Assembly (NCBI GenBank): GCA_025266875.1
Contig: JALLLT010000002.1
Coordinates: 310,001 to 374,000, forward strand
Direction: 5' to 3'
DNA length: 64,000 nucleotides
Origin: Fennellomyces sp. T-0311
Taxonomy: Eukaryota > Mucoromycota > Mucoromycetes > Mucorales > Lichtheimiaceae
Under the pieces are notes generated by a model. That model was not told the DNA's origin and ran no database searches. It saw only the letters and a list, made by a program, of their open reading frames with translations. Positions 35,776 to 57,505 of this stretch are shown here, piece by piece (position 1 is the first letter of the stretch; every line of letters starts with the position of its first letter). The translations under genes and the position numbers were made by a program.

Positions 35776-38700
35776 TTACCGTATATAGTCTAAGTTGTAA
35801 TCCATTGGTGGGCCATCATCAGATGACTCGATTTGTGACCAATAAATATATTCCCTTCCTGACTGTCCCTTTGCACGACCAGCAAATCCGACAATGTCTT
35901 CGATATCGACCACTACATGTTTTGATCCTGCGGCTTCTGTTTTGTAGGGCCAAGGGGATGGAGAAACACCTTTGACTATCTTGCAAACTTTTACGAAGGC
36001 GACCATTTTTTCCCAGTCCTTGAATGTGTGAGTAAAAAAGAAAAGTACTTCACCGAAGTATTGTCTTTTGTCTGTTGTAACGGCAGTCCTGGCACTGTTA
36101 TTTACACAAACTTCTTTATGGATCCTTACGAATGGCTGACTTCCACCGTAGACAGTTTGTTGCTTCCATAGCCTGCCCCCTGTTCGCAAAGTTTCATTCC
36201 TGTCGATGGCTACATTCTTATAGCTTTTGTTATGCCAAGCCCAAAAATGCACCAGCGCCGATTTGCATTTGAGATTTGCTATTGAATCATTTGCATAAGG
36301 TCCCCAAATCTCCGGGCTGTTGGGTTCATCGGACAAGGCGATAACTCCTGTTTTTTTCTTGCGTGGACTTCTATTGTTCGTGGATAGGTCGTTATCGTAT
36401 TCTTCGTCATGGCCGTCAGGAGTCTCCGTGCTGATAATGTTGTTTTCATCACCATGTTCCTCGAGGCGTTGCTGTCTTCGAATAGCCGCAAGCTCGACTA
36501 ACACGTTTCCAGCATTCGTGCCAGCATCTCGTGTGGAATTTATCCGCTTCTTCAATGCACCAATCGCTCTTTCCATAGCGAACGCAGCAACATACGGTAG
36601 AGGGCCCATCCTTTCAATGACTTTGTACAAGTGGTTTAAATAATGTTGGTTTACGGTGAAGACTTTCATCGGCATACGCTTGTCCTCCACTTGATCTGCT
36701 AACCAGCCAGTCCATGACATTGTCGTCTCCTTTAACGCTCTGATCTGTTCTGTGCGTATTTGGCGGGCAAAAGTGTAACGGTAAATAGTCGATAAGTCCA
36801 CTAAGGCTTGCCTTGTATCGACATCAGTAAAGAACTCCAGTACAATAGTTGGGACAAGATATAATACAAAATGTATCCAATCTATGGCACGATAGTAGCC
36901 TCCGTGTGTGTAAGTGTCATCGCAATCACCTGAGAAGCTGGATGGTGTTAATTTTCGTGATGCAGCAACTAACTTCCCAATTTCCTGCTGTTTCTTGGTA
37001 GGTAAATATAGCGGATGATCGCTGTTGTCGCCATACTTTCCACGAATCATCTTCCAAAGATGTTTACCAACACCAGGTCCCAAAAGGTGCATGGGGTCGA
37101 TAGGGAAAAAAGTCGCGCCATGGAATGTTGGGAGGGCAGTAAACTTGCAACCTTCTTTTTGCCCGATGTCAACATTTTGGCATTCAAAGTCTTTAGCAAG
37201 TCGGATTTCAATTTCACCACTGTCAAAGGGAGGAAAGGTCATGCGGTTCTCGATGAAAGTTCCCTCAATTGTGCAGAAGCGACATCCATAGTAATGTGTA
37301 TGCCCACTATGTCCTGCCATTTTAGCCACCGCCGGAATGTCTCCGCCAACGTAAAGTAAGTGCGCCCTGAGATCAATTACGCCGTCATCAGTTGAAACGG
37401 ACATACCGTGGCTGCAAAGCTCCTTAAGCTCGTTAAGGGTTGGCTCTAAGAAACTAAAAATGTCTGTGGGCTTGCTTGGGCCTGGGATGACACAAACTTG
37501 TATCATATTCTTATCTTCCATCCGCTTGTCTGGAGGGAAATTCAGAATTACGAAGTGGACGATGGTCATGGAATGTTGCGAATGCTTGAAAGGATTAAAG
37601 TCGTCGGTAAAGAGTGCCAGTGCAATATCCAGCTTGTTGGAGAATAGCTGCTGTACATTTTGATAAAGTTTGCCATCGAAAATGTCTTTCATCACACCCT
37701 GTTCAGAACTACGTTCTGACCGATGTGCCAGCATCTTGCGAGTTCCACTGTCCTCGACCATCAATGTCAATTGATCCTTCAAAGAGAGCTGCTGCATACG
37801 CTTCATCGCGGTGTCTGTGTTTTTATAAAACCGAGGGCCCTTGCAATGTTCGCATTTGTCGCTTTTATCCGTGTCACCAAACATTTTACATCCATTGACG
37901 CAAACATCAAACATCTTTGCTTTGACTGGATAGCTGTTGCGAAGTTTCTCCCTTGCACAATGGTAGCTGAGTAGTGCAGGTAGTTCACCTTTGATATACT
38001 TGTTGACTCTGGATATGATCGTGTCGTATAATTCGCGTGATGCACCCGCTTTCACCACCGCGGAAAGAATATCGATACTTGCTACAGTATTCTCTTCTTG
38101 TACAGCCTCGGTAACGGCGACTTGGCGGTTATTATAAGTTAATCCTTTTGTGATCAGATCCCCATAATTGTCGCTATACAAGTTACTGCAGTAGCGCTGA
38201 ATATTATTGTGTTCAGATCTGGCGCGATGATTGTGTTTGTCATTTTGTGGAGTAGCTATGTTGTTTTCTATGTATCCATCGTCCCAAACGTCGAAGTCAT
38301 CATATCCATAGTTACACTGGGCCTCATATTGTTGATTCCCGCTATCACTATTCATTATTTGATCCTCAGTGTCTAGAAGCATGCTGTCGTTGTCATTGCT
38401 CATTTGATGATGCTCAATGATATCAACAAGTTGACTGCTCTTTTCGTTGCCCGTTGTGCCATCATCGTTAACACCGGAATAGTTGCTCTGCGCGTGAGGG
38501 TCGAAACGCCATAATTGTGGCATAGTTTGTACATTGAAAGTATGATCGGTGATATCCCCGGGTGATAGATGTAGCAAGTTTTCAAACTAAAGAGAACTTG
38601 GTTTAACTGTAAGAACGCATGCGACATGTCAACTTACATTTGGATATGCGGTTCTTAAGTGTAAAAGTGCAGGTTGACTTTGAAACTGTTGCATTGTAGT

Positions 38701-38934: not shown

Positions 38935-40583
38935 ATGGCTTCGTTATCAGAGCAGACTGTCGTTCAAATGCTGAACAATGTCTACGGATTGATCAATGAA
39001 ATGAAGGCTATCGTCTCTAAAGACATAGAAGAAGTAAAAAATGCAGTAGACGAACTGAAAACTGATGTGAGAAATTTGACAGAGCAGGTCGAAGATCTCA
39101 AACAGCAAATGGAATCAAGCCAAGCTGTCGCTACAGATGCCCAACCAATGGTGTACTTACGCCCCGACTTGTCTGTACCCAACCCTTTTGAGAACATGGT
39201 GATCAAAAGAACCGTGGAGCATCCAAAAAGTGGACATTTGTTACGGCAATTTTCATGGCCACTTTATGAAATGCTTGCCAATGAAGTCCTCAAGACAACG
39301 ACCTGGGATAGGTCCATATTCAACATTTTCAAAAAGAATGTTATGCCGTTTGCGGAAGGAATTGCAAGATTCATCCGCATAAGAGATCGAATCCCCGGGA
39401 CAGTATTGTGGCGGCAACTTACTGACAGCCAGTTTTATGACGCGGTCAGTATCCTAGAGAATGGTATAGGTGATTCTTTCCCTCTGAAGGCTTGTGCTGG
39501 GCACTGGGGCGCGCGTTTAATTATGGTGGAAGCATGGAGAAAAACTAGGTCAAAAGGTATAAGCAACGAAAGATAACAGAATAAATATATGTTGTTAACC
39601 TTCAGTGCATAGGGGACAAGGCAACAGATGAAACACCGCAACAGGAGCAGGAAAGGTACGATATGTTCTATTTCAAAGCTACTGGTCTAAATGTAAATGT
39701 TGACTAGTCTGGCGTCGGTGGAATCAGCCCGGAACACAGACGAGATGGCATATAATCATCCGCATGAATTTGACGAACCAAGTCTACACGATTATTCGGA
39801 TCTTCACGGTAATTCGAGCTGGGGTATGTCGAGTGTATTGGATCATGCAAACTCGACTGCTACGGCAACGCCGAGTGGCCATGCCCGTAACCTGTCAACG
39901 GGGTTGTCGAGCAGTTCTGACCATACTCTACCCGCAACAACGCCAAACGGTTACGCTCATCTCTTGTCAGCGGAATTGTCGAGCAGTTCTGATCGTCTTG
40001 CACTTGCAACCATGTCAAATGGCTACGCAGATCTTCCACCCACAACAATGACTACCAGTTATACACATCCTTCAATCCCAGCGGGATCATCAAGCGGTTT
40101 CGTTCGTCTTCCACCCGTAACGATGACAAGCGATTATGCTCCTCCTCCACTCGCAGGATCGTCGAACGCGTTTAACAGGACTCAACCATTGGGAGATCGA
40201 TTGAACACCATAGTAGCTCCTCCCCATCAGCCCATCTCAACTACTCTCGATGCAGAGTTAAGCGATGATGAGATACCCCTTAGACGCAAACGCAGGCGAC
40301 AAGATCCCTCGGCAGCCCCAGGAACCATTCAGCAAGCAGAGTCCACAGCTGGCACAAGTATTTCAGATTAATCTTTTTGAACAACCAAACTTGGTAATTG
40401 ATACTTTTATTAGATCAAAGCCTTGAAAACAACGGTCTTCAAGGAAACGAACGTGGTGTTGGCCCTGGCGTTCGTCGCGGTGCTGGTCGCGGTGCTGGTC
40501 GCGGTGCTGGTCGCGGTGCTGGTCGTGGTGCTGGTCGTGGTGCTGGTCGTGGTGCTGGTAGTGGTACAGGTCGTGGTGTCTGA
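38935..40583 (+). CDS. Transposon accessory protein: coiled coil, Ser-rich linker, RG-rich tail
   Basis: Four exons (38935-39556, 39613-39655, 39708-40357, 40414-40583) give 494 aa. Residues 1-60 form a heptad-like coiled coil (EEVKNAVDELKTDVRNLTEQ). A compact segment follows at about 80-205 (HLLRQFSWPLYEMLANEV, FIRIRDRIPGTVLWRQL). Residues 222-410 are Ser/Thr/Pro-rich with imperfect SSSSD-containing repeats, then comes a basic cluster, RRKRRRQD, likely a nuclear signal. The last exon, joined after TAGT, encodes a tail of RGAG repeats from a 12-bp DNA repeat. By position it corresponds to the second gene (TnpA role) of CACTA elements, which binds subterminal repeats; no sequence match to known TnpA is seen. 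If the last intron is retained, the protein ends at 40371. Confidence 0.75.
40471..40570. repeat. 12-bp coding minisatellite (GGTGCTGGTCGC units)
   Basis: About eight near-identical 12-bp units, each encoding Gly-Ala-Gly-Arg, form the C-terminal tail of the accessory protein. Confidence 0.85.
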
Positions 40584-40854
40584 AATGGCGGTAAAGGTGA
40601 AACCGATGCCCAGCTTGGGCATCGACATGATGGCTAACATGGCACTGGGAGTGGGGGTGAAATGGTTGTCATTAGCTGGCATGATTTACTGCTACCCTAC
40701 TATATTTATCGTTAGTTCTTTCAATGTTACCTCTCCAAAATGATTGTATAGCATAATAAAATGGTGTTTGTACCGCCCAATCGTGTTGTCGTTTGAACTA
40801 TCCCGCATCATAAAATTAGACCAAATTCGCTGAATAAGGAGATCAGTCGGAGTG

Positions 40855-41017
40855 AAAAAATATTGAAACTTGTTCAATATTTTGTGAGAAATATTGAAAT
40901 GTCTTCAATATACATATGGGAAAAATATTGAAAAAATATTGAAAACCTCCCTTTTTTTCCATATCTTCATAATTGCATATTTTTCTGACATATTTCTCAT
41001 ATTTTTTTCCTAAGGTG
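40855..41017. repeat. Right subterminal and terminal repeats of the transposon
   Basis: Six ATATTGAA/TTCAATAT motifs lie between about 40858 and 40945 in both orientations, followed by the AATTGCATATTT block shared with the left end and the terminal inverted repeat ending CCTAAGGTG at 41017. Confidence 0.85.
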
Positions 41018-41020
41018 CAG

Positions 41021-41493
41021 TATCAAACAATCTTTAGTACTTATGATACTAATCGAAACCAAACCATTCGACTTCACGCGTTGAATCTGGACCAGTACAT
41101 CTTTACTTGATTATATTGTTATACATGATCTGTCGTCGCATTACACATGTCCACGTAAAATATAGAGTAATTTTCTATAGTATTTGTAATGCTAACGGCT
41201 CGTTTATATGTAGATCATTAATAGCTGGCAACATACGATAGAAAACGGCAGTATAAGCTCTTAAGCACCGAAGAAAATCCACTCATACAGAACTTCAAGT
41301 AACAGCATTGTTCAATGGTCCTGCGCAATTGCTCTTCTATAGATATCATAGAGAACAGCTTTGTCGAGAGTCTGAAAAACGATGGGTCTTCTTCCGATTA
41401 AAGTTGTGTATATGAGAAAATGATTAGCAACAAATCATTCATTGTTCCATCTCATAATAGCAATGTGTGCGCAATTTAACTAAATGGAAAAGG
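41021..41493. other. Intergenic between transposon and microprotein cluster
   Basis: AT-rich, no gene recognised. Confidence 0.4.
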
Positions 41494-41503
41494 TATAAAT
41501 ATG
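41494..41503 (+). promoter_or_regulatory. TATA box of microprotein A
   Basis: TATAAATATG, 98 bp before the ATG at 41592. The same element recurs at nearly the same distance before copies B and C. Confidence 0.7.
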
Positions 41504-41591
41504 CTAACATTTCAAAGGCGCCTTTTTTTCTCAAGCTCATCAGCCACAATATTAAATTTCAAGGACCTCAGTGCCCAATCAAGAATACAAT

Positions 41592-41768
41592 ATGTGTGGA
41601 ATTTGTGACAACAAAGGCAGTTTTAGCTCTGCTAAATCTGGCCCTAGCACCCTGTCTATATCATCCTTCTACTTACCTTATGCTTTCGTGGTAGAAATCC
41701 TTGTTCTTGTCATCACTGTCATTGCTGTTGGAGCTATTGCGCAAGTCTTAGCTGATGATCCATTCTGA
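41592..41768 (+). CDS. Tandem membrane microprotein A (58 aa)
   Basis: ATG at 41592, stop TGA at 41768, single exon. The N-terminus is MCGICDNKG, with a CxxC pair; then a polar Ser-rich stretch, an aromatic turn (SSFYLPYAF), and one hydrophobic helix of about 25 residues ending VIAVGAIAQVLADDPF. An acidic residue (VVEILV) sits at the start of the helix, as in the other two copies. Compared with B and C the linker is about 10 residues longer. A TATA box 98 bp upstream and AATAAA at 41807 frame the gene. Function unknown; it is probably a single-pass membrane peptide whose N-terminal cysteines could be lipidated or bind metal (inference). Confidence 0.75.
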   Translation: MCGICDNKGSFSSAKSGPSTLSISSFYLPYAFVVEILVLVITVIAVGAIAQVLADDPF

Positions 41769-42735
41769 ATATATAAGTAGTGGTCCAGCGTGATTAACGT
41801 TGAAATAATAAATATCAGGAACGCTTATATTTGGACTCCCTATTTGTATTTTATTTTATACACCGTTTCTTTACCCTGTCACTCCTGTTATACTTTGTGC
41901 CTAAAAGTGGCCCAATATTTCATAAATCTATGTCCTTTAAAAAAGATAAAATTGTTTTTAATGATGGTATAAGATCTGTTGATCGACCGATGATGAAGGT
42001 CTTGAGCAATCTCAGTCATAAATTAAGCTAGCGAATATCAGCCACATATGCATTCTGGATTGCCAATAGTGATATAGGTTTTTTGAACTGATAATAGACG
42101 TTGTTGGTGGGTAATATGGCAGCAACATACGTATTAGGCCTTGAGAAAGCGCCCGAATCTGTGAACGATACCAGGAACGGGTGATAATGAGTGAGCGTTG
42201 GCTTTAGCATTCTGAACATAGATACTCGGTTTCTGCTATGTTTTCGTTACTCCCATATTCTAACAGTACTTTATCAAATTCGTAACAGTTATGGTGCAGA
42301 AAAGCATGCCTAGTGAATAGGTGAAAGCGGACGGTGGTGATACAAATATGGTCAGTGCAGAATTATGAGTAACAAGTGACGATGATTATTAGCCATGGAG
42401 GATGCATAACAAGGCTGCAAGCTTGTCATTGTTAATTGTCTTTCATTACATAACCTTCGATACAATGGCTGGCTTCTATGTAATAGTTGCTGGTCTTGAA
42501 AAACTCTGTACCGTTCTTATTATATCTCGGCAATCTTCATCGAATTTTTCCACTAGTGCAACCAGAACTTTTCATGTGTAGTTTTTAATGCATCAATATA
42601 ACACGTAAGTAAGCAAACTGTAATAACAGGGCACATTTGTTCAAATGTATCTTTTTTATTATGTAATATATGTATCAGAGTACTTTGGAAAGCGCCCACA
42701 CTAGCAACAATGAACTTCTAATGGAAGCAAAAAAG
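41769..42735. other. Spacer between microproteins A and B
   Basis: AATAAA for copy A at 41807-41812; beyond this AT-rich sequence without a recognised gene. A minus-strand ORF at 42219-42028 has no motif. Confidence 0.45.
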
Positions 42736-42746
42736 TATAAAGTATG
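42736..42746 (+). promoter_or_regulatory. TATA box of microprotein B
   Basis: TATAAAGTATG, 91 bp before the ATG at 42827. Confidence 0.7.
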
Positions 42747-42826
42747 CGATAGAGTTATCTATGGTTGTGCACTTTACCCTGTTTTTTTAACATCAATTGG
42801 TCTTATCTGCTTATAATTACTACACT

Positions 42827-42976
42827 ATGTGTTGCGAATTGTGCTCTCCACCGAACCAGGTTTCCCCAGCCATGAGATCTGCGTACATCTTTATGGCCGA
42901 ATTCTTGATCTTCGCAGCCACTGTTATCGGTGTCGGAATCATTGCGCAATTTTTAGCGAGTGATAGCGGTCCATAA
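42827..42976 (+). CDS. Tandem membrane microprotein B (49 aa)
   Basis: ATG at 42827, stop TAA at 42976, single exon. Below the length most gene finders accept. The N-terminus MCCELCSPPNQ carries three Cys in the first six residues. One membrane helix follows (YIFMAEFLIFAATVIGVGII), ending AQFLASDSGP. From the helix Glu to the SD near the end it is almost identical to copy C (EFLIF-AT--VG-IAQFLASD). TATA box 91 bp upstream, AATAAA at 43125. The 3' region resembles that of copy C (GCGCTGAAAGTAGAATAAA against CGCCTTGAAAGTAATAAAT), so the whole transcription unit was duplicated. Confidence 0.75.
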   Translation: MCCELCSPPNQVSPAMRSAYIFMAEFLIFAATVIGVGIIAQFLASDSGP

Positions 42977-43722
42977 GTAGTTGTCGTTGTCATCACAGCA
43001 GTATCGTCGAAGAGCCGCCCAACAATGGGACAGGGTGCATTGTTTATTACATAATTAATACTCCCTAGTCATTTTGTATATCACTTCATATGCGTGCCTG
43101 TTTATCTTTATGCGCTGAAAGTAGAATAAAACTAGTAACTTAGATGGGAGCAGGAAACATGATACATACAAAATGTTTCAGATAGGTTGCTAGCAATAGA
43201 CCTGTGATTTGCATCCCCAGATTTTGGAGTCTCTACTCCTTTTATGTGTATGTAAAAATTCACTAAAAGCTTCTCTATACTTTATTTTATTATATACTGT
43301 CCTTGGTGGCTACTGCTAAGTAGCAATTCTGGTAGCAAAATTTGAAACTCCTTCAGTAGGTATAACAAATACCCAGATCCGGGTACCAAAATGATAACTG
43401 CAGATCCAGCATAGATAATTACTTTGCTTCCTAAACAATGGCTACATATCATACGAGTGCTTATATTAGTAGAGGATTCGCACAGAGTATATCACAAGGA
43501 CATTACCAAGAGATTTTTGCGCTTGCTTAGTATCTGCTACCAGAAACATTCTATTTAAAGCAGCAATGGTTCTTATCGAGATCGATCTAATACTGGGAAA
43601 AAACCACTTGGAAACAGGAAATTTACTCACACTTGTCATTTATGTCCTGTGGTCCCTTCACACTACTCTGGAATTAGCTGGCACCAATAAAAATGAGCAC
43701 CTGTTGACGACAGCAAAAAATA
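42977..43722. other. Spacer between microproteins B and C
   Basis: Contains AATAAA of copy B (43125-43130). No other gene recognised. Confidence 0.45.
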
Positions 43723-43732
43723 TATAAATATG
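43723..43732 (+). promoter_or_regulatory. TATA box of microprotein C
   Basis: TATAAATATG, identical to the box of copy A, 96 bp before the ATG at 43819. Confidence 0.7.
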
Positions 43733-43818
43733 GGCAAAAAAAATGTGTTCACAGAATGCAATACACTTTTATCCCAATTTTATCTTCAGTCGATCCTATC
43801 AACTTACGATTCTATATT

Positions 43819-43962
43819 ATGTGTTGTACCAGGTACACTACAAGCAAGGTCGGTCCAACTCCGGGCGTCTGGTCCGTGCTTATTTTCCTTATGGAATTCT
43901 TGATCTTTGTTGCCACAATCGCCGCAGTTGGAGCGATTGCACAATTCTTAGCGAGCGACTAG
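43819..43962 (+). CDS. Tandem membrane microprotein C (47 aa)
   Basis: ATG at 43819, stop TAG at 43962, single exon. It starts MCCTRYTTSKVGPTP, so it keeps the Cys pair at positions 2-3 but lacks the later CxxC cysteine. The helix reads VLIFLMEFLIFVATIAAVGA and the protein ends IAQFLASD. AATAAA at 44089. An in-frame extension upstream of the ATG is open but has no conserved sequence, so the MCC start is preferred; it aligns with copies A and B. The conserved end and Glu within the helix suggest a binding partner in the membrane or an oligomer (inference). Confidence 0.75.
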   Translation: MCCTRYTTSKVGPTPGVWSVLIFLMEFLIFVATIAAVGAIAQFLASD

Positions 43963-46262
43963 AATCCCTGAGCAACTGCTGCGACCCAAAATGACAGATG
44001 GCAAAACAGTAGCTTTGATGTCAATCAACATTTCACATTAATTCATGCACTGTCCCTTTGGTCTTGTTAGACTTTACGCCTTGAAAGTAATAAATCCGGT
44101 GAACTCTTATGGAGCATACAATTCGTATAGCTGAGACACTGGTAGGGCTCGGGGCTCGTTCGTCGGACAAACGGGAGAACCGATTTGGACAGACATTGAC
44201 AGTGGGGCTTTGGGCAGAAGTGTTGGCCTGAATACGTAGAGGATCGGATCGTCAGCTAAAAACACGTTGTCAGACATCAATGAGACTAAGTATATGTTAC
44301 AAAGTCTTGAGTCAAGAGGATCGCTTGATCTATTGTTGAAAAATATGCTGGATATATTCAAGCTGGTTACCTTCGTTTAGAGTGGCCGCTGCACGTCGTA
44401 CAAAGCAAGGACCAGGTGAACAATGAAATACTGCAACTGTTACAGCCGGTTCTGCTTTTGACGCCTGTCTATTTATCTCCCGCAAATACTCATTTCGTTT
44501 GCGGGATTTTTTGCAACTTCACACTTCACAGCCTCTAATCATGCTCAGCAATGAACGATTTCGATCTGGATTAGTCGTTACCCCATTGACAACTCCATCT
44601 CAAACACGATCATGTTGGTCGGTCCACGTTTTTAGATGTACCTGAATCTTCGGGCGCGGTCCAACAGCCTTGGTCGTTTCAAAATGATCCATGAACGATA
44701 GTCCGAGTCCTATTGTTGGGTGACCTACTTTTCATGCAGTCAATCGAGCCAACGACAAGCTCGGCTTTGGTCCGTCGATTTGGTCGTAGATACAGCTGAA
44801 GCGAAAGCTTTAGGTTGAAAGTGATCTGCAATCTTCGCAAAATACTGCAAGCAGCAGCTCAACAGCAGAGTACAAGTCTTCACGATATGCTATATATAGC
44901 TTCACGGTCTTTGGAGGCTAAAAGCGCCACGAAAGCACGATAAAGAGGCGTGTCGATGACGATTACTGATCTTCAGTTTCGACTTTGCTTCGTTTCCTTG
45001 CCTTTTTTTTAAGTGGAAGTTACCGTGGATGGTGATCTGCTAAATTTACTACAGAAATGACGGGGCCTTCTTATCTTCTAGTATCTTATACCATATCTAA
45101 TTAGCGGTATTGCGTAATCAAAATGTCCTTCGGCAGATCAGCGATACAAGGAAACAGAGCTTATCATTGTCCTCCCAGGAATCATTTGTGTGGAATGCTC
45201 TTTTTTTTAGTTGAGCCCAAAGTCAAATTTATGTATGCTCTACGTTGAGAAGCGCACTTTCGCATCACGTAGCCTTTTTTAAGCAGTCGTGCCTGGTTGT
45301 GTGGCTCAAATGGCGTCAATAATTTTTCATCCCTGGGCCCGAAAAATGGGTTCGCCATTCCCGACGTTCTGTGTCTAAACGTATAAAACATTCTAAAATG
45401 CTAGGAAACCTGCAATCTCGATCGATGCTACAGTATTTATCGCTGACGTTTAAAATTTAGCCTGATTTTGACACCAAACATGTGGCTAGTCTGTGCAATC
45501 ATCTAGCGCAGCCTCTACCCTCACCACGGCATGTTGTGTTACGTTACCGGGTAATTGGTTAAAAAAGGGAAATGTAAGCCACGCCCGTCTTTACATTCTC
45601 AATTCTTCATTGCGCTTTCCTTCTTTTTCCCTTCTCGTTATTTATCAACCCTAAAAATCCGTATCAACAGCACTACACCCTTTTGAATTTGGAGCTCAGA
45701 CACTGTCTCTTAAGGAACGTAACGCTTCAAACGCAAACTCGGAATTAAAGCGCCTGGGGCACCGGTCTTGTGCGACCAATATCCATGTTCTCAAATGACA
45801 GAAAGAGTGAAGATGATCATAAGAACATGCTTTGTTATATAGGCCACCCAGCTGAGTACAGCAACTAAGCCATAGCTACTTTGATATTTTTTCTCACATC
45901 GATTATCATTACAGTGGGCGGCACGCCCAGTTACCCAGTTTGGTACCTCAGACTTAAAGTCCGGGTGGCACGGTGATTTGAAGGTGCATAACACCTCAAC
46001 GCTGTATCGCACATCTTAGACTACAACGCTAATACAAAAACAACATAGAACACCTATTTGTCATATGTTGGTGGTGCGGAAAAGCGAAGGCATACACTTT
46101 TTAATTTCCCGGTGACCTTTCAGCGCGGGGGTCCGTGACACATTGAGGACAAAAGTTTGAAGTTTTTTCTTTTAATACGCTCATCCCGCCATATTTTACC
46201 CTCTTCTTCTTTTTCTTCCGCTCCTTCTTCCACTTCCCTTCCTTCTTTGTGCAGACCATAAA
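43963..46262. other. Intergenic, 2.3 kb
   Basis: AATAAA of microprotein C at 44089-44094. The rest holds no recognised gene, RNA or repeat. The C/T-rich tract 46200-46260 is the leader of the second G-alpha gene. Confidence 0.45.
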
Positions 46263-49832: not shown

Positions 49833-51170
49833 CTAATAATCTAGTGCTACTGGGACGGGACCAAAAGCCAACAAGCCCATTCCATCTGTGGTCTCCATAT
49901 TACATATCGGGTCCATCCCGTATCCATAATATAAAAATACATCCTTCGTGTCCAATTTCCGTGCATCGTCGGTCAAGAAAAGCCGCACACTTTTACCGTC
50001 TTCTTGGATCTTTGAATTGTATATCACTGGCAATAGAGTACCATCAGAGGCATGCAAGCTAAATCCATAAACGCCGTCATCGTACAGTTTCCATTTGTTG
50101 ATGTACTCGAACTTTATCAGCAAAGTAGACTGTATAGCAGCTCTCGAAGTGGTATCGGTAAGACTTTTGCTCTCGAAAGTGACGCTTGAAAACGTTGGAG
50201 TGCTCATTCCGGCTTTGTTGTTCAATGAATTTGCTGCTACAACGGCTAACCGTTCTCCAACAACTGATAGACCATGAGCTGACAAATGAATGCGGTCATC
50301 CATTTCACAGTCAATACTGGAGACGGCTCCAACACGCTTGGTATCCCAGCCATCGTTAATCAGTAATCGCTGTTGTTCTCGGACAGTGTTCCAACCTTCG
50401 TCATTGCTCTTCATATTTACGGAACGCGCGATCTGAACATAAGCAAACGCCATTTGATCGTTTTTGAGTTTGGACCGCGTATTTTGAATAAGTGACTTGA
50501 GATTAGCACCGTGCTTGGCGGAAAGAGTAAGGTCATCGGCGTCAGATTCTCCTTGGTACCATAATATTCCAGTAATCTGGTTCTCAACTTTATCTATTCG
50601 TCCTAGCATGGCACCGTACAATGTTCTGTTGTATGGGTCCTCGGTTGTCTCGAGTAGCGCTGGATTCCATTGATCCATAGTTGTGCCGCCATGTGTAGAT
50701 GCTATTAAGCCGACAGGAACTTGTACTTGTTTGCGGTATGCTTTGGCAAACGCCATTCCAGGGGAAATTCCTCGATATTGATAATAGTTTTTCGTACTAA
50801 CGGAAGGATCTGGAAGTTCGTGGTCGATTTGTCGTACCGATTGGTCTAGTCTGTGAGTTGGTTCGCGGGCAACGCTCCATGTTTCGTTGGATTGAAACAT
50901 GTGCACCATTTTGTCGAAGTGTTCCGGAAAGGTGGTAGGAGGGTCAGTCCATGGGTCTTTGTAAAATGCATTTCCACGCATATTGCTTTGACCAGCCATC
51001 ACCCAAACATCTCCAACAAGTACATTGCTCGCATCGTCAATATCATATGGTCCTCCAACTTCAAGTGCGCGGACATGGCCATTAGCTTGCTTTACAAGAG
51101 CCTTGTTGGTGGAGAAATCTCGCTGTAGCACCTGATAGCTGTTTACACGACTATACACATGTTGCTCCAT
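49833..51170 (-). CDS. SASA-type carbohydrate esterase, unanchored paralogue (445 aa)
   Basis: Single exon from ATG 51170 (MEQHVYSRVNSYQVL) to 49833. It is an SGNH/SASA-domain protein like sialate O-acetylesterases: the nucleophile block is GDVWVMAGQSNMRG (Ser about 62), then LIASTHGGTTMDQWNP, ILWYQGESDADD, and the Asp/His block DDRIHLSAHGLSVVG. The C-terminal part (EYINKWKLYDDGVYGFSLHA onward) is a beta-rich domain. Such enzymes remove acetyl groups from sugars. The paralogue at 53.4 kb is colinear over the whole domain but has about 44 more residues at the N-terminus, including a membrane anchor. Here an in-frame stop lies about 45 bp above the ATG and no anchor or signal peptide is seen, so the product may be cytosolic. 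Confidence 0.85.
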   Translation of the reverse strand: MEQHVYSRVNSYQVLQRDFSTNKALVKQANGHVRALEVGGPYDIDDASNVLVGDVWVMAGQSNMRGNAFYKDPWTDPPTTFPEHFDKMVHMFQSNETWSVAREPTHRLDQSVRQIDHELPDPSVSTKNYYQYRGISPGMAFAKAYRKQVQVPVGLIASTHGGTTMDQWNPALLETTEDPYNRTLYGAMLGRIDKVENQITGILWYQGESDADDLTLSAKHGANLKSLIQNTRSKLKNDQMAFAYVQIARSVNMKSNDEGWNTVREQQRLLINDGWDTKRVGAVSSIDCEMDDRIHLSAHGLSVVGERLAVVAANSLNNKAGMSTPTFSSVTFESKSLTDTTSRAAIQSTLLIKFEYINKWKLYDDGVYGFSLHASDGTLLPVIYNSKIQEDGKSVRLFLTDDARKLDTKDVFLYYGYGMDPICNMETTDGMGLLAFGPVPVALDY

Positions 51171-53450
51171 CCTCAAGTCTTCAGTTTTAATAATACGAAT
51201 ATAAATAGAAGAAAAAGAAGCGGTTATACAAAATTATTTTCTTATTTCACTTTGCATAAAGGGGTAGCGGACTCCAGGGAGTGCCTCTCCGTTAAATCGT
51301 GATTTATGTCTATCCTAAGCAGCTGCCAAATCATTTCTACAAATTAGGGAACAAACCAAATCGCCATGAGTAGAAAATATAATATATCATGTTGTTTCAT
51401 TGTAATATATAACTGCATACATAAGCAAAGAAAAGATGTGCATAGTTTGTAGATTGGAAAATGAATTCAATATGCTAGGGAAATACAATCACTCACAATC
51501 TAGAGTGCTCACTATAATGAAAAGTTGGTAAGTTTTCACAGAGCTATTCTTACTCTATAAAATATGCCACTACTTTATTGGCCACACCTAATCATCTTAT
51601 ACGTTATACAGTCATAGGGATCTTCCTTATCTACATTATTGTTGTAGTAATCAATTTTCAAGGAGAAAGTAATGAAAACACTCCCCTTACTTATCGCTGA
51701 TTTCTAGTCTACATTGAGTATCAAAAGCGTGTATTTACTTTGTAACTGTTAAAAACTCTTCTATGTGAGCTATCCGAGGCCAAGTTAACGTGTCTTGTGC
51801 ACACAGTGACGAATGGCCCTCATTTAAACACGAGAATGAACTGTAGACAACAAAAGTAAGCTTTTTGTCTCACAGTGCAATGTTGTCCTTCGCATTATAT
51901 ACACTTAACATGTGCTAACTGTGCCCATAATTACCTCGTTGTTAATAACGGACAGGTTCCACTAGCTACTTTTTTTTTAAAAAAAAAAAGTTCAACGACA
52001 CATCGGTGTCGCTGTAATCTTATTATTGTATAGACGATGTCGAGCGTCACACAGCTTTATATTACGTTAGGGACAGGGGTGTTAACTTGGCGCATACACT
52101 GGCGTACCGTGCAGAGTGACGGTGATAGGCAACAGTAAAGTTTAATTATTTCCGCGCTTTGCTTTCCTAGACCCATAGGGGTGATCACTACTATTCTTAG
52201 CAGCGGAGAATAGTTGTTCAGAAGAAGAGTCCTTCAATGCGTACAATTTCTTCGCCCATGCTTAAACATAGAAATCGACCAATTATGTTAGGATTCGATT
52301 AGAATCCTTTTATATCCATTATCCGTGTCAATTATCTAGGAGAATCTATAATACTCTGCTCATCAATTCCGCTGTACGAAAACGAAACTTAATATACAAG
52401 CACTTTATCCAGCAACTCCTTACCGAACAAGTCTGCCCAGTGCACTCTTTTAATTCTTGTAAGTACGTTGTAGCCAACATCAACATTATTTTATGATATG
52501 CACCCTCTTGGTGATATATAATATATCCGTTGTGCTGCTCAGGCTCAATGAATCGACTTTTTAATTTCGGAACACAAAAAATCGCTTCCATGTGTAACCC
52601 ATTTTTAGGCGCTGACTGAGCTTATTTCTCCTCTACTAGCTAACGATATCAGTATATACATACATAGTTCCTAGTTACATATTTTTGGATCAACAAATAG
52701 CTATAATCTCTATTTGTTCTCCAGGTTAGGAGCAAATATAGAAGGACCAGAACACTGATAATTCCATTGTTCTAGAAGTACTTGGTACTACTGTATACTT
52801 CCTATCGATAATGCCATTTTCTTTAAAACTTATAGATGCGCTGACTTTGCCTTGGGACATTGTTTCTGGAACGGCCTAATATATATGTTATTTCATCTCT
52901 GATTCATTATTCTTGACAGGAAGCACAATTAGTTTTGTTCAAGCATGTGGTGAAGCAACCGCAGATAATAATAATAGAAGATATTTCCTACCGGATAACA
53001 CATATCGGTTCAACATCATCACGAAGTGTACTTACATAGTAGCTTGTCTACACGGATTAAGAATTACACCGTATGCACGAATGGGATAAACTCAACAGGA
53101 CATGGAATTGACTCCAATATAGCAATGCGGTCATTACACTGCATGGCGGACGTCAAAGACATCCTCAGATCCGCATGACCAGAACAAAGGAAAGGTCCTA
53201 GACGCCCTCTATTCATTCAGGCAATTCTGAAGACGAAACACTATCTAAACTGCCATCGCTGATTCAATACGCAAAAAGATATAAAAGCATAGAGCGTTGC
53301 ATTCAATAAAGCATATCCGAAACTTCAGAGATACTTTTATAAGTCTCTTTTCATTCTTTGTACTGTTGATTCACTTCAAAGCATATAGGTATATATTGAA
53401 TGTCATTAATAGTATACTTGGGATTGTAGGTACATAAAGATGCATATTCT
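51171..53450. other. Intergenic between the two esterase paralogues
   Basis: AT-rich, 2.3 kb. A T/A homopolymer palindrome lies near 51970-51990. No gene recognised; a minus-strand ORF at 52591-52346 has no motif. Confidence 0.45.
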
Positions 53451-54920
53451 TTAAAAGTTTAATGGTACAGGAACCGGTCCAAAGGCAAGCAAACCCATTC
53501 CATTCATAGCTTCCATGTTACATCTGGGATTCATACCGTAGCCATAGTAGAGAAAAACATTGTTCGGATTCAACTGCATTGCACTGTCGCTTAGGAATAG
53601 CCTCACAGTCTTCATGTCTTCTTGAATCGCTGACTTGTATATTACGGGCAATATTGCGCCGTTCGCGTCATGTAAGCTGAAACCGGAAATGCCGCCTTCA
53701 GGTGATTTCCATTCGTCAACATGCTTGAACTGTAATAACAAAGTCGCTTGCAGGGCAGCAACCGAAGTGCTGTTGGCAAATTTCCATTTTTCAAAGGTAA
53801 CAGTGTCTAAATCAGGACTGCTGGATCCGCCCGTATTTTCAAGCGTTTTTACCGCTGCGATCGCCAATCGTTTTCCAATTACTGCTTGGCCGTTGGCTGA
53901 TAAATGGACAGGATCATCCAATTCACAGTCGATACTGGAAACAAGCCCAATACGCTCGGTACTCCAGTCGTCATTGATAAGCGACCGCTGTCCTTCTCGA
54001 ATCGTATTCCAATTGTTGTTATTGTTTACCATGTTTGACGAACGTGCAATCTGGACGTATACGAACGGAAGGCGATCATTTTTGAGCTGTCTGCGGGTTG
54101 TTTGAATAAATGACTTGAGTCGGGCGCTGTGCTGGGTTGCAAGAGTAGAATTCTCGGCGTCTGATTCTCCTTGGTACCATAGAATCCCCGCCACTTGATT
54201 CTCAATCTTCTCAATTCGTCCCAACATGGCTCCATAAAGCGTGTTGTTGAATGGGTTTTCGGTCGTTTCAAGCAGCTCCGGATTCCATTGCTCCATAGTT
54301 GTACCTCCATGGCTCGATGCCACCAAGCCTACTGGAACATTCAATTGCTCGCGGTAAGCTTTACCAAAGGCAGTTCCCGAGGATACACCTCGGTATAGAT
54401 GATAATCCTTGAGGTAAACGGAGGGATCAGAAATACTGTAGCTAACTTGGCGGGGTGATTGGTCGATTCGATGTGTTGGTTCGCGAGCCAGGCCCCAGTC
54501 CTCGTTGGATTGAAACAAATGCACCATTTCATCGACATAGTCTGGATATGTTTTCGGCGGGTCCGTCCATGGGTTGGTATAGAAACCACTTCCACGCATA
54601 TTGCTCTGGCCACTCATGACCCAAACGTCTCCCACAAGGACATTGGTTGCGTTGTCAATAGTGTAAGGTCCTCCAACTTGGAACGAAATAACCTCGCCGT
54701 TAGATTGTCTGACCAACGCCGTGTTCGTAGTAAAATCTCGCTGTAGTACTTGATAACTGGTGACTTGGGAGTAGATATGTTGGGAACTCATTGCACGGTG
54801 TATAAGGATTGGAATTAGAATTGGAATGAGCAATAATATAAAGCAGATAAAGGAGAGGATAGAAATTGCGGTTGGCGATAGTCTTGATCGTAATCTTTTT
54901 TGCCACAAAGGCTGTTTCAT
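53451..54920 (-). CDS. SASA-type carbohydrate esterase with N-terminal membrane anchor (489 aa)
   Basis: Single exon from ATG 54920. Residues 1-14 are basic (KRLRSRLS) and about 18-41 form one hydrophobic helix (ISILSFICFILLLIPILI), so this is a type II membrane protein or a secreted enzyme with an uncleaved anchor. The catalytic domain repeats the pattern of its neighbour: DVWVMSGQSNMRG (Ser about 106), LVASSHGGTTMEQWNPELLE, ILWYQGESDAEN and DDPVHLSANGQAVIG. Several Asn-X-Ser/Thr sites fit passage through the secretory route. Probable action: deacetylation of glycans at the surface or in the Golgi (family knowledge plus inference). Same strand as the paralogue, 2.3 kb apart, so a local duplication. 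Confidence 0.88.
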   Translation of the reverse strand: MKQPLWQKRLRSRLSPTAISILSFICFILLLIPILIPILIHRAMSSQHIYSQVTSYQVLQRDFTTNTALVRQSNGEVISFQVGGPYTIDNATNVLVGDVWVMSGQSNMRGSGFYTNPWTDPPKTYPDYVDEMVHLFQSNEDWGLAREPTHRIDQSPRQVSYSISDPSVYLKDYHLYRGVSSGTAFGKAYREQLNVPVGLVASSHGGTTMEQWNPELLETTENPFNNTLYGAMLGRIEKIENQVAGILWYQGESDAENSTLATQHSARLKSFIQTTRRQLKNDRLPFVYVQIARSSNMVNNNNNWNTIREGQRSLINDDWSTERIGLVSSIDCELDDPVHLSANGQAVIGKRLAIAAVKTLENTGGSSSPDLDTVTFEKWKFANSTSVAALQATLLLQFKHVDEWKSPEGGISGFSLHDANGAILPVIYKSAIQEDMKTVRLFLSDSAMQLNPNNVFLYYGYGMNPRCNMEAMNGMGLLAFGPVPVPLNF

Positions 54921-57505
54921 CCTTGTAACAGAAGTGGCTCAAAAGTTTGTTGTACAGATCATTTATAAGCCGATGCTAAAATAAAGTCATGGCAAAACAT
55001 GGAAAACCACGTGCTTGTTAAAAAAAAAAGGAAACGTGTATAGGCTTTGAAAAACGGCTGTGCTTAGTGCGTGACAGCATAGAGGTGTTGTACAAGCAAG
55101 CACATAAAGCATAGCGTGCTTCTTACACTAATCAACAGCGGTTAGTTTTTACTCGTGCAATTGACACCGATCGCATTAGATTCACTACCTTTCAATTGAG
55201 AGGTGACCGCCATCAGAAATGCTTGTCCTGAAAGAGTGTGCAGAACTGTTCTTTAGGAAATTCCCGCGCTTACACAGCTCAGCAGGTCGGAGTGGCGTAT
55301 TTACAGTGTCCCAGCATTTATGGTTTCACAGCAAGGTAACCGTATCACCACGATGGTAAAACGCACTCATACAGTAATATGATGTTCTTATTCTTCCTGT
55401 TCAACGCAAGCTACTTAAAGTTAGACGCATCAATGAAAGTTTCCAAGAGATGAATATGTGCTATGTAGGTTTAAAAATATGTTGTACTTGGACTCACGCG
55501 TCTAACGATGTAATGGAAAGTAAAAAGAATTCATGAGAAGTAGGAAAATGGGCTTATCTGTACATAGTGACTAATTGGTTGGCAGATTTAAAGTAAAACA
55601 TTGTGTTACCACATCGCGAGATATGGTACGGGATAATTAGTCATTCTACCATATATATATGATTTGCTCTCATTTGGATACTGGTGGCATCACCTACCCT
55701 GGTAAGCCAGTGGGGCGGTATACTACTGAGTTAAATCGCAATATTCGGTACAGCGATTCACTACAGTAAGAATCAGACGGATTGATACGTTGCATTGGTC
55801 GCTTAGTATTTTGACAGTACGAAGTACTCACCTATTATAAGCAAGTGCTAATAATGCGAGCCTCTGCTTTCATTCATTGTAAACAAACACTTTCCAAACG
55901 CATTAAACCATGGCATAGTGATTATGAGAAAGTAGATGCACTGTATAACTCTGTTGCGATGTTCAACAATAGGTAGGGACAGGTAAGTGACAAGGCTCAA
56001 CTAATGACTGATTTATTTCGTATGTTGAATTTTCACCTTAAATAATAAAAGCTCATTCTCGAGGGGTTGGACCATTGACATGGCTGTAAGGCACATGAAC
56101 CGCTGTGGTAACCAGGGTTATGTGGGTTTCACTAGGATATGCAAGGTTACGATGAAGGACGCATGTCAAGAACAGGGAGCTTTGTAAAATTAAGGGTTTA
56201 ATTTCCAAGTAAAAACTTTAGTATTCACTTTTTGCTCTTTGATTAACGGAAGCTATTAGTAAAACGAATCGCTCTTTGCGGAGTGATTGAGAATCTACTA
56301 TAAGGAATCGTTGGTAATTCCATGATATATTATACTTTATAGAGGTAGAAATAACCGTCTGGAAAATAGACTATGGACACAATCGAAGTTTTTACTCTAG
56401 GTAGACATTGTAATAGTTTCACCGAGTAATGTCATTATATTATCGCGATAAATAGTGAGCGAAGCGCTCTAGTGAATCTGTAGTGCCCCAGCTTAGAGAA
56501 GAAGGGCGGATTTGGTTTCCATTTTAATCTCTTTACAGAAAGCATTCCTTTCTCAGCAGGTTCTTCTCGAACACAAACGAATAATTCCGCTTCAAAGTGC
56601 TACTTTAGCGGCGAAATAAATTGTATGTAAACTCAGTGCTGTCATTCACCACAAGGGATATTTATTAAAAAAGAAAGCTCCCTCTTTTATAGCAATAAAC
56701 TTCTAAAGGTATAGTTTTCAGTAATTTAACTGTTCCACAGAGATGAAAGTTCCTAATGTCTCACGTGTATAACTCAAGTCTCCGCCACTCTGAACGTACA
56801 TGCCCGTGGAATTCCAGGAAAAATATAAGGCTACATATGCAGAGTTTGTACTACAAGCACAGGGTGAGATAGAGGCTTTTATTGACCACGTTTTTTGAAC
56901 GCGCACTGATCACAACTTTCTGCTCTCGCAAGATCCATTAAATGAAGAAGAAATGAAAAACATGCTAGGCAGGGAAAGAAGAAGGATATAGGGAATGATT
57001 TAAAGCTAACAGCCGGAGAAGGGGGGAAAGGATGGTGAAGGAAATACAAAATAAAAATTAGAGGGAAGTGGATCAGTTACAGTATAATTACTAGGAAGGA
57101 AGTGGAAACGGTATAATAAATATATTTTTTTCTAGGAAAAAAGAGGCGACGTGGACAGGGTTGACACTGGCGTCGGTGGCTCCATCCATTCAAGGAGCGC
57201 TTGACCATGTTGGGCCACCTACTACAAGTATAGCGAATCTCCGCTTTTTCCTCGATCTGACCATACTATCCACTCGACTTTAATATCTATTTTACCTCGG
57301 ATTTTCGCGTTCCATCCGTCTAGGAAATAAACGGAAGACCACTGTAAATTGAGGCTTTGATACTTCTTTATCGGTAGTGCGTATCTGTTTACTCTTGACA
57401 ATATGTCCACACTGGAAAATTGACCTAAAGCTAAAGCGAAGTACGCATACTAGGTAATCACATACTATAGAAACATATATACCCTATCGAGGCTGGGTAA
57501 CAAGG

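Follow-up and report, generated by a model that had tools for sequence, protein, structure and literature searches.

Pmp1 and Pmp2 are single-pass membrane proteins with a basic cytosolic tail after the helix, and in size they are similar to the products of three small genes, here named copies a, b, and c, which form the subject of this report and lie in tandem on the plus strand of Fennellomyces sp. T-0311, inside positions 41494-44094 of a 64-kb window (i.e., the whole stretch of DNA analyzed). Pmp3 possesses two helices. Pmp1 and Pmp2 are very small membrane proteins encoded by duplicated genes; when both are lost, the specific activity is halved, and a Candida albicans mutant was no different (PMC6521590). 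In CYSTM proteins, the C-terminal helix contains 5-6 cysteines, of which 3-4 are consecutive, and an acidic residue comes after them (PMC10217909).

From comparing the three copies with each other, we consider it highly likely that they form a real, old, three-gene tandem family. They resemble CYSTM proteins, such as YDR034W-B and MNC1 from yeast, in being very small and probably tail-anchored and in having a C-terminal helix, a variable linker, cysteines, and a small set of paralogues. However, the helix contains 5-6 cysteines in CYSTM proteins (PMC10217909) and none in copies a, b, and c. In CYSTM proteins the acidic residue follows the helix cysteines, whereas here a Glu is situated where the helix begins or close by; the three copies also have acidic residues past the end of the helix, but no helix Cys precedes them. 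CYSTM membership was rejected because the helix is devoid of Cys and no Pfam family is matched, and the resemblance is one in outline only. Of the initial annotation of this DNA, the observation is confirmed and the interpretation holds in part: duplicated open reading frames (ORFs) conserved in one frame are borne out, a stress peptide of the CYSTM type is not, and lipid anchoring and an ion-pump partner are possibilities. With Pmp1 and Pmp2, the copies share duplication, very small and comparable size, and a single helix, but they end acidic, without any Lys or Arg after the helix, instead of carrying a basic tail, and are set apart by this description. Pmp3 (UPF0057, PF01679) is likewise a very small hydrophobic membrane protein and is present elsewhere in the same genome, but it differs by its second helix, and copies a, b, and c do not match PF01679.

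Three tandem paralogues conserved in one reading frame

The three ORFs that had been annotated initially are present on the plus strand: copy a at 41592..41768 (58 amino acyl residues, beginning with MCGIC), copy b at 42827..42976 (49 residues, MCCELC), and copy c at 43819..43962 (47 residues, MCCTRY), stop codons included. Their start codons are spaced by 1235 bp (a to b) and 992 bp (b to c). All three proteins start with MC and carry a C-terminal VGxIAQxLAxD, and the conserved core, which contains the helix, comprises residues 30-56 in copy a, 20-46 in copy b, and 21-47 in copy c. Their alignment has 15 invariant columns, which include M1, C2, a Glu of the helix, and V-G-x-I-A-Q-x-L-A-x-D. 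Conservation is highest in the helix, and the N-terminal linker is variable.

Copies a, b, and c are paralogues. When used as queries in six-frame protein searches of the genome (45.6 Mb, 182 contigs, window included; copy c at an expectation value (E) ≤ 1, copies a and b at E ≤ 10), copy b finds copy c at E 6.5e-8 and copy c finds copy b at E 6.4e-7. Matches involving copy a are weaker (E 0.0148-0.0667 genome-wide), yet they all lie on one strand in a stretch of about 2.2 kb and in the frame of the ORFs. Nothing beyond these three places was detected by the three queries in the genome, and a profile run against the 2119 six-frame segments (≥20 residues) of the window did not reveal a fourth copy or a relic, the next best match having an E of 0.25. 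A mobile element was rejected as an explanation, given the single genomic locus found by protein search, where copy counts are lower bounds. The duplication claimed initially is upheld by genome-wide protein matches in one locus and one frame. At the DNA level, the helix-coding part is 74% identical between b and c over 65 bp, 74% between a and b over 58 bp, and 86% between a and c over 29 bp, and b and c are 74% identical over 50 bp of the 5′ untranslated region (UTR) and start. The window contains two exact instances of the 10-mer TATAAATATG, one at copy a and one at copy c. This pattern of decay, with core and 5′ UTR/start retained and TATA and AATAAA regions preserved more weakly, would be expected of old duplicated transcription units.

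Evidence that the copies are coding comes from the way in which they have diverged. For each pair, the same nucleotide changes were placed at random within the 27-codon core and the resulting BLOSUM score was determined in 20,000 trials; the observed score was reached by 13 random placements for a/b, by 2 for a/c, and by none for b/c. The differences fall on codon positions 1, 2, and 3 in numbers of 6, 6, and 16 for b/c, 10, 7, and 14 for a/b, and 13, 5, and 13 for a/c. Among the six frames, the sense frame is the best one in all three pairs (scores 72, 72, and 92), so that protein identity is indeed held to one frame and substitutions spare the protein relative to random placement. When codon usage is compared with that of seven long pieces of ORFs from the window, copy c gives a clear signal, which was equaled by 23 of 2000 null draws.

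Rates of nonsynonymous (dN) and synonymous (dS) substitution were calculated among the copies. By NG86, dN is 0.34 and dS 2.36 for a/b, dN is 0.39 and dS 1.34 for a/c, and dS for b/c is undefined. By LWL85, the values are dN 0.43 and dS 14.6 for a/c and dN 0.27 and dS 1.69 for b/c, with no value for a/b. As synonymous sites are saturated and dS depends on the method, dN/dS is uninformative; the saturation indicates that the copies are old. Antisense to copy b, a 57-codon ORF is found at 42820-42993 on the minus strand, and the corresponding antisense frame is fairly conserved, although less so than the sense frame.

Core promoters and 3′ ends

The core promoters of the three copies match. TATA boxes are located on the plus strand at 41494..41499 (copy a), 42736..42741 (copy b), and 43723..43728 (copy c), i.e., 98, 91, and 96 bp upstream of the respective ATG. 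The constant promoter spacing claimed initially exceeds chance: when triples of positions between 30000 and 60000 were drawn at random 200,000 times, none had TATAAA 50-150 bp upstream with distances spanning within 8 bp. Nor do ORFs of the neighborhood generally carry TATAAA at a similar distance: of two esterase ORFs, one has TATAAA 47 bp upstream of its first ATG and the other has none within 200 bp. The motif CACTTT is common to copies b and c, 34 and 41 bp after TATA, respectively, and copy a has GCCTTT at 26 bp instead; CACTTT could mark the start of the transcript in b and c. Assuming that transcription starts 26-41 bp past TATA, the 5′ UTR would comprise about 55-70 nucleotides.

Candidate poly(A) signals AATAAA follow each stop codon on the plus strand, at 41807..41812 (39 bp past the stop of copy a), 43125..43130 (149 bp, copy b), and 44089..44094 (127 bp, copy c), and these distances are more variable than the spacing on the 5′ side. 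Alone, AATAAA is weak evidence because it is common in the window (88 observed compared with 62 expected). Judged by eye, however, the contexts of the three signals, GTTGAAATAATAAA in copy a, CTGAAAGTAGAATAAA in copy b, and TTGAAAGTAATAAA in copy c, resemble each other, in agreement with the related 3′ ends noted before. Each copy apparently represents a compact, intronless transcription unit.

Predicted topology and proposed role

The products of copies a, b, and c each contain one hydrophobic stretch, located in the C-terminal half, with Kyte-Doolittle peaks over 19 residues of 2.86, 2.39, and 2.56, respectively. For copy a, AlphaFold supplied with the three-row alignment predicts a single helix of residues 21-55, and the mean predicted local distance difference test (pLDDT) score of the model is 70.9; residues 31-50 are confident, with block means of 94 and 95, and residues 1-20 are of low confidence, with 48. 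CYSTM proteins have an N-terminal element for which a β-strand is predicted and a variable linker; in the model of copy a, the N-terminus shows no strand, but belongs to the low-confidence part, and the linker varies among the copies. Inspection by eye did not reveal an N-terminal hydrophobic run resembling a signal peptide in the three proteins. A single hydrophobic helix near the C-terminus, as given by hydropathy and model, and no N-terminal signal, as judged by eye, are what defines the tail-anchored class. In tail-anchored proteins, the helix near the C-terminus does not emerge from the ribosome before termination, and insertion, with the N-terminus in the cytosol, takes place after that. 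According to the positive-inside rule, basic residues favor the cytosolic side. Lys or Arg residues occur only before the helix (2 in copy a, 1 in copy b, and 2 in copy c), and acidic residues follow it (2 in copy a and 1 each in copies b and c; in copies a and b, a further one precedes the helix), so that an orientation with the N-terminus inside is favored. Cysteines are found at C2 and C5 in copy a, at C2, C3, and C6 in copy b, and at C2 and C3 in copy c, with none past residue 6. Cytosolic cysteines close to the membrane are candidates for S-acylation.

The reading that we favor, with about as much confidence as reserve, is that copies a, b, and c encode unannotated orphan tail-anchored microproteins whose cytosolic Cys end is possibly S-acylated and which act through a membrane partner. 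Each unit would have a TATA box and a poly(A) signal of its own and, between the two, a short 5′ UTR and a single ORF of 47-58 codons. Its product would begin with MC in a cytosolic N-terminal part of 19-29 residues and continue as a helix, about 25 residues long, whose end lies at most about six residues from the C-terminus. Insertion into the membrane would be post-translational, because such a helix does not come free of the ribosome until translation has ended. The task of the product would be an accessory one: the helix, which carries invariant T, G, A, and Q as well as an invariant Glu close to its cytosolic edge, would pair either with itself or with some larger protein of the membrane, and Cys 2 (together with Cys 3, 5, or 6) may be lipid-modified by S-acylation, or else redox- or metal-sensitive. 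Computation shows the paralogy, the constraint on the frame, a hydrophobic helix, and the matching core promoters; expression, topology, modification of the cysteines, and binding of a partner are what we infer.

Several observations weigh against this reading. As no relative was found outside the locus, conservation rests on the three paralogues. Conserved helix positions do not cluster significantly on one face, since 2053 of 20,000 shuffles were as good, and so do not point to a partner-binding face. The core used in the frame test was picked for aligning well, which favors the test, and one antisense frame, likewise open across the core of each of the three copies, scores second-best (51, 60, and 79). 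The codon-usage signal is weak in copy b (136 of 2000 null draws as good) and missing in copy a (396 of 2000). YN00 provides values for a/b only, with dN 0.58 and a method-dependent dS of 0.72, i.e., a ratio near 0.8. DNA matches of the TATA regions are individually weak (BLAST E 0.8-2.7), and upstream of TATA no common block is seen, with 6 of 12 columns identical compared with 5-7 in five shuffles.

It is possible, but on the unlikely side, that the copies are expressed coding genes acting via the N-terminal cysteines, be it in metal or redox functions at the membrane or as a CYSTM-like stress peptide, and that the helix serves only to anchor the protein and has no specific partner. C2 is present in all three proteins together with one or two further cysteines within the first six residues, the layout is tail-anchor-like, and the lack of a single conserved helix face would suit an anchor. 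TATA-type promoters often accompany regulated genes, which would also agree with such a function. However, it is the helix and not the linker that is most conserved, the cysteines vary in number and place, and the helix lacks the cysteines of CYSTM proteins.

That copies a, b, and c are young or dispensable microgenes, transcribed and maybe translated, duplicated in tandem, weakly constrained, restricted to the genus, and of no settled function, appears improbable to us. Their occurrence at one locus only, without a relative in the searched protein collection, the missing codon-usage signal of copy a, and the strong divergence among the copies would be in line with this possibility, yet saturation marks the copies as old, and frame and core are intact in all three of them.

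Very little speaks for the copies being 3′ exons that encode the C-terminal helix of larger spliced genes rather than stand-alone genes. Copy c would permit it best, as its frame is open for 37 codons 5′ of the ATG (the upstream in-frame stop is 114 bp away) and contains a second in-frame ATG at 43756, from which a protein of 68 residues (21 more) would result. However, this ATG may fall outside the transcript because the TATA box begins 33 bp upstream of it, and it would be excluded if CACTTT marks the transcript start. In copies a and b, an in-frame stop 39 bp upstream of the ATG disfavors an exon of a larger gene, and since no AG is seen by eye between this stop and the ATG of copy b, copy b is excluded as a downstream exon if acceptors are AG. 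The TATA boxes at 91-98 bp and the M-C start common to all copies are also at odds with exons. That the copies are conserved non-coding DNA or RNA elements with incidental ORFs is scarcely credible: it would fit with AATAAA being common in the window, but protein conservation is frame-specific, the frames are open in all three copies, and a structured RNA was rejected, with no Rfam family matching at gathering score in 40500-45500.

Novelty, neighbors, and significance

Searches with the three proteins agree with the initial statement that no named family has this layout, as neither Pfam nor the protein collection provided a match. No Pfam-A family was found at E ≤ 10 for any of the three proteins, although HMMER filters may drop weak matches. 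Shortness alone does not explain this result, because with the same tool Pmp3-like pieces of 29-30 residues from two other loci were recognized as PF01679 at E 8e-11 and 2e-11. These Pmp3-like sequences of the same genome (L001:1405-1623 and L002:1501-1590, both on the plus strand) are unrelated to copies a, b, and c, and the L002 match contains an in-frame TAA. A collection of 5.8 billion proteins was searched by a method that depends on shared exact words; the profile of the three copies gave 159 candidates, none at E ≤ 10, and copy c, the only single-sequence query, gave no candidate sharing three words. Since this collection, which includes annotated Mucorales proteins and some of Fennellomyces sp. 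T-0311 itself, gave no match, the genes are probably unannotated. Proteins this short are often omitted from annotations. Among viral contigs, 152 pattern matches contained no relative, and the best match among solved structures (E 0.32, proteorhodopsin) is taken as chance hydrophobic similarity. A literature search yielded nothing on Mucorales microproteins or fungal tail-anchored transmembrane microproteins, and papers on Mucoromycota small ORFs and on Fennellomyces were off topic by listing. The copies are orphan in sequence and ordinary in kind.

As to the neighborhood, a 936-residue ORF with a Transposase_21 (tnp2) domain is encoded at 35776-38586 on the minus strand, about 3 kb upstream of copy a. 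Two neighboring sialate O-acetylesterase-like ORFs at 49833-51233 and 53451-54938, both on the minus strand, form a second similar pair in the window. The former contains a SASA domain, and the esterase gene at 53451-54857 (minus strand) shares 99% identity, across 90% of the query, with a protein of Fennellomyces sp. T-0311 (Mucorales, Lichtheimiaceae), so that this strain or a very close one is probably the host. The second esterase ORF shows 64% identity to a protein given without source, taken to be the first esterase.

Small ORFs are routinely overlooked by gene finders, and comparing paralogues within one locus provides sequence evidence for coding without a transcriptome. At present, the value of the locus lies in being a well-defined target; it does not yet provide a mechanism. 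A bolder view, which we regard as rather doubtful, would see in copies a, b, and c a new lineage-restricted family of tail-anchored microproteins in which the cysteines clustered at the N-terminus act as a reversible switch, of a lipid or redox kind, and the acid-tipped helix regulates a membrane pump or transporter; if true, the three divergent copies would be condition-specific isoforms, each with its own promoter. If the favored reading of tail-anchored microproteins is true, these genes would add to an early-diverging lineage of fungi a family of membrane microproteins that is orphan in sequence.

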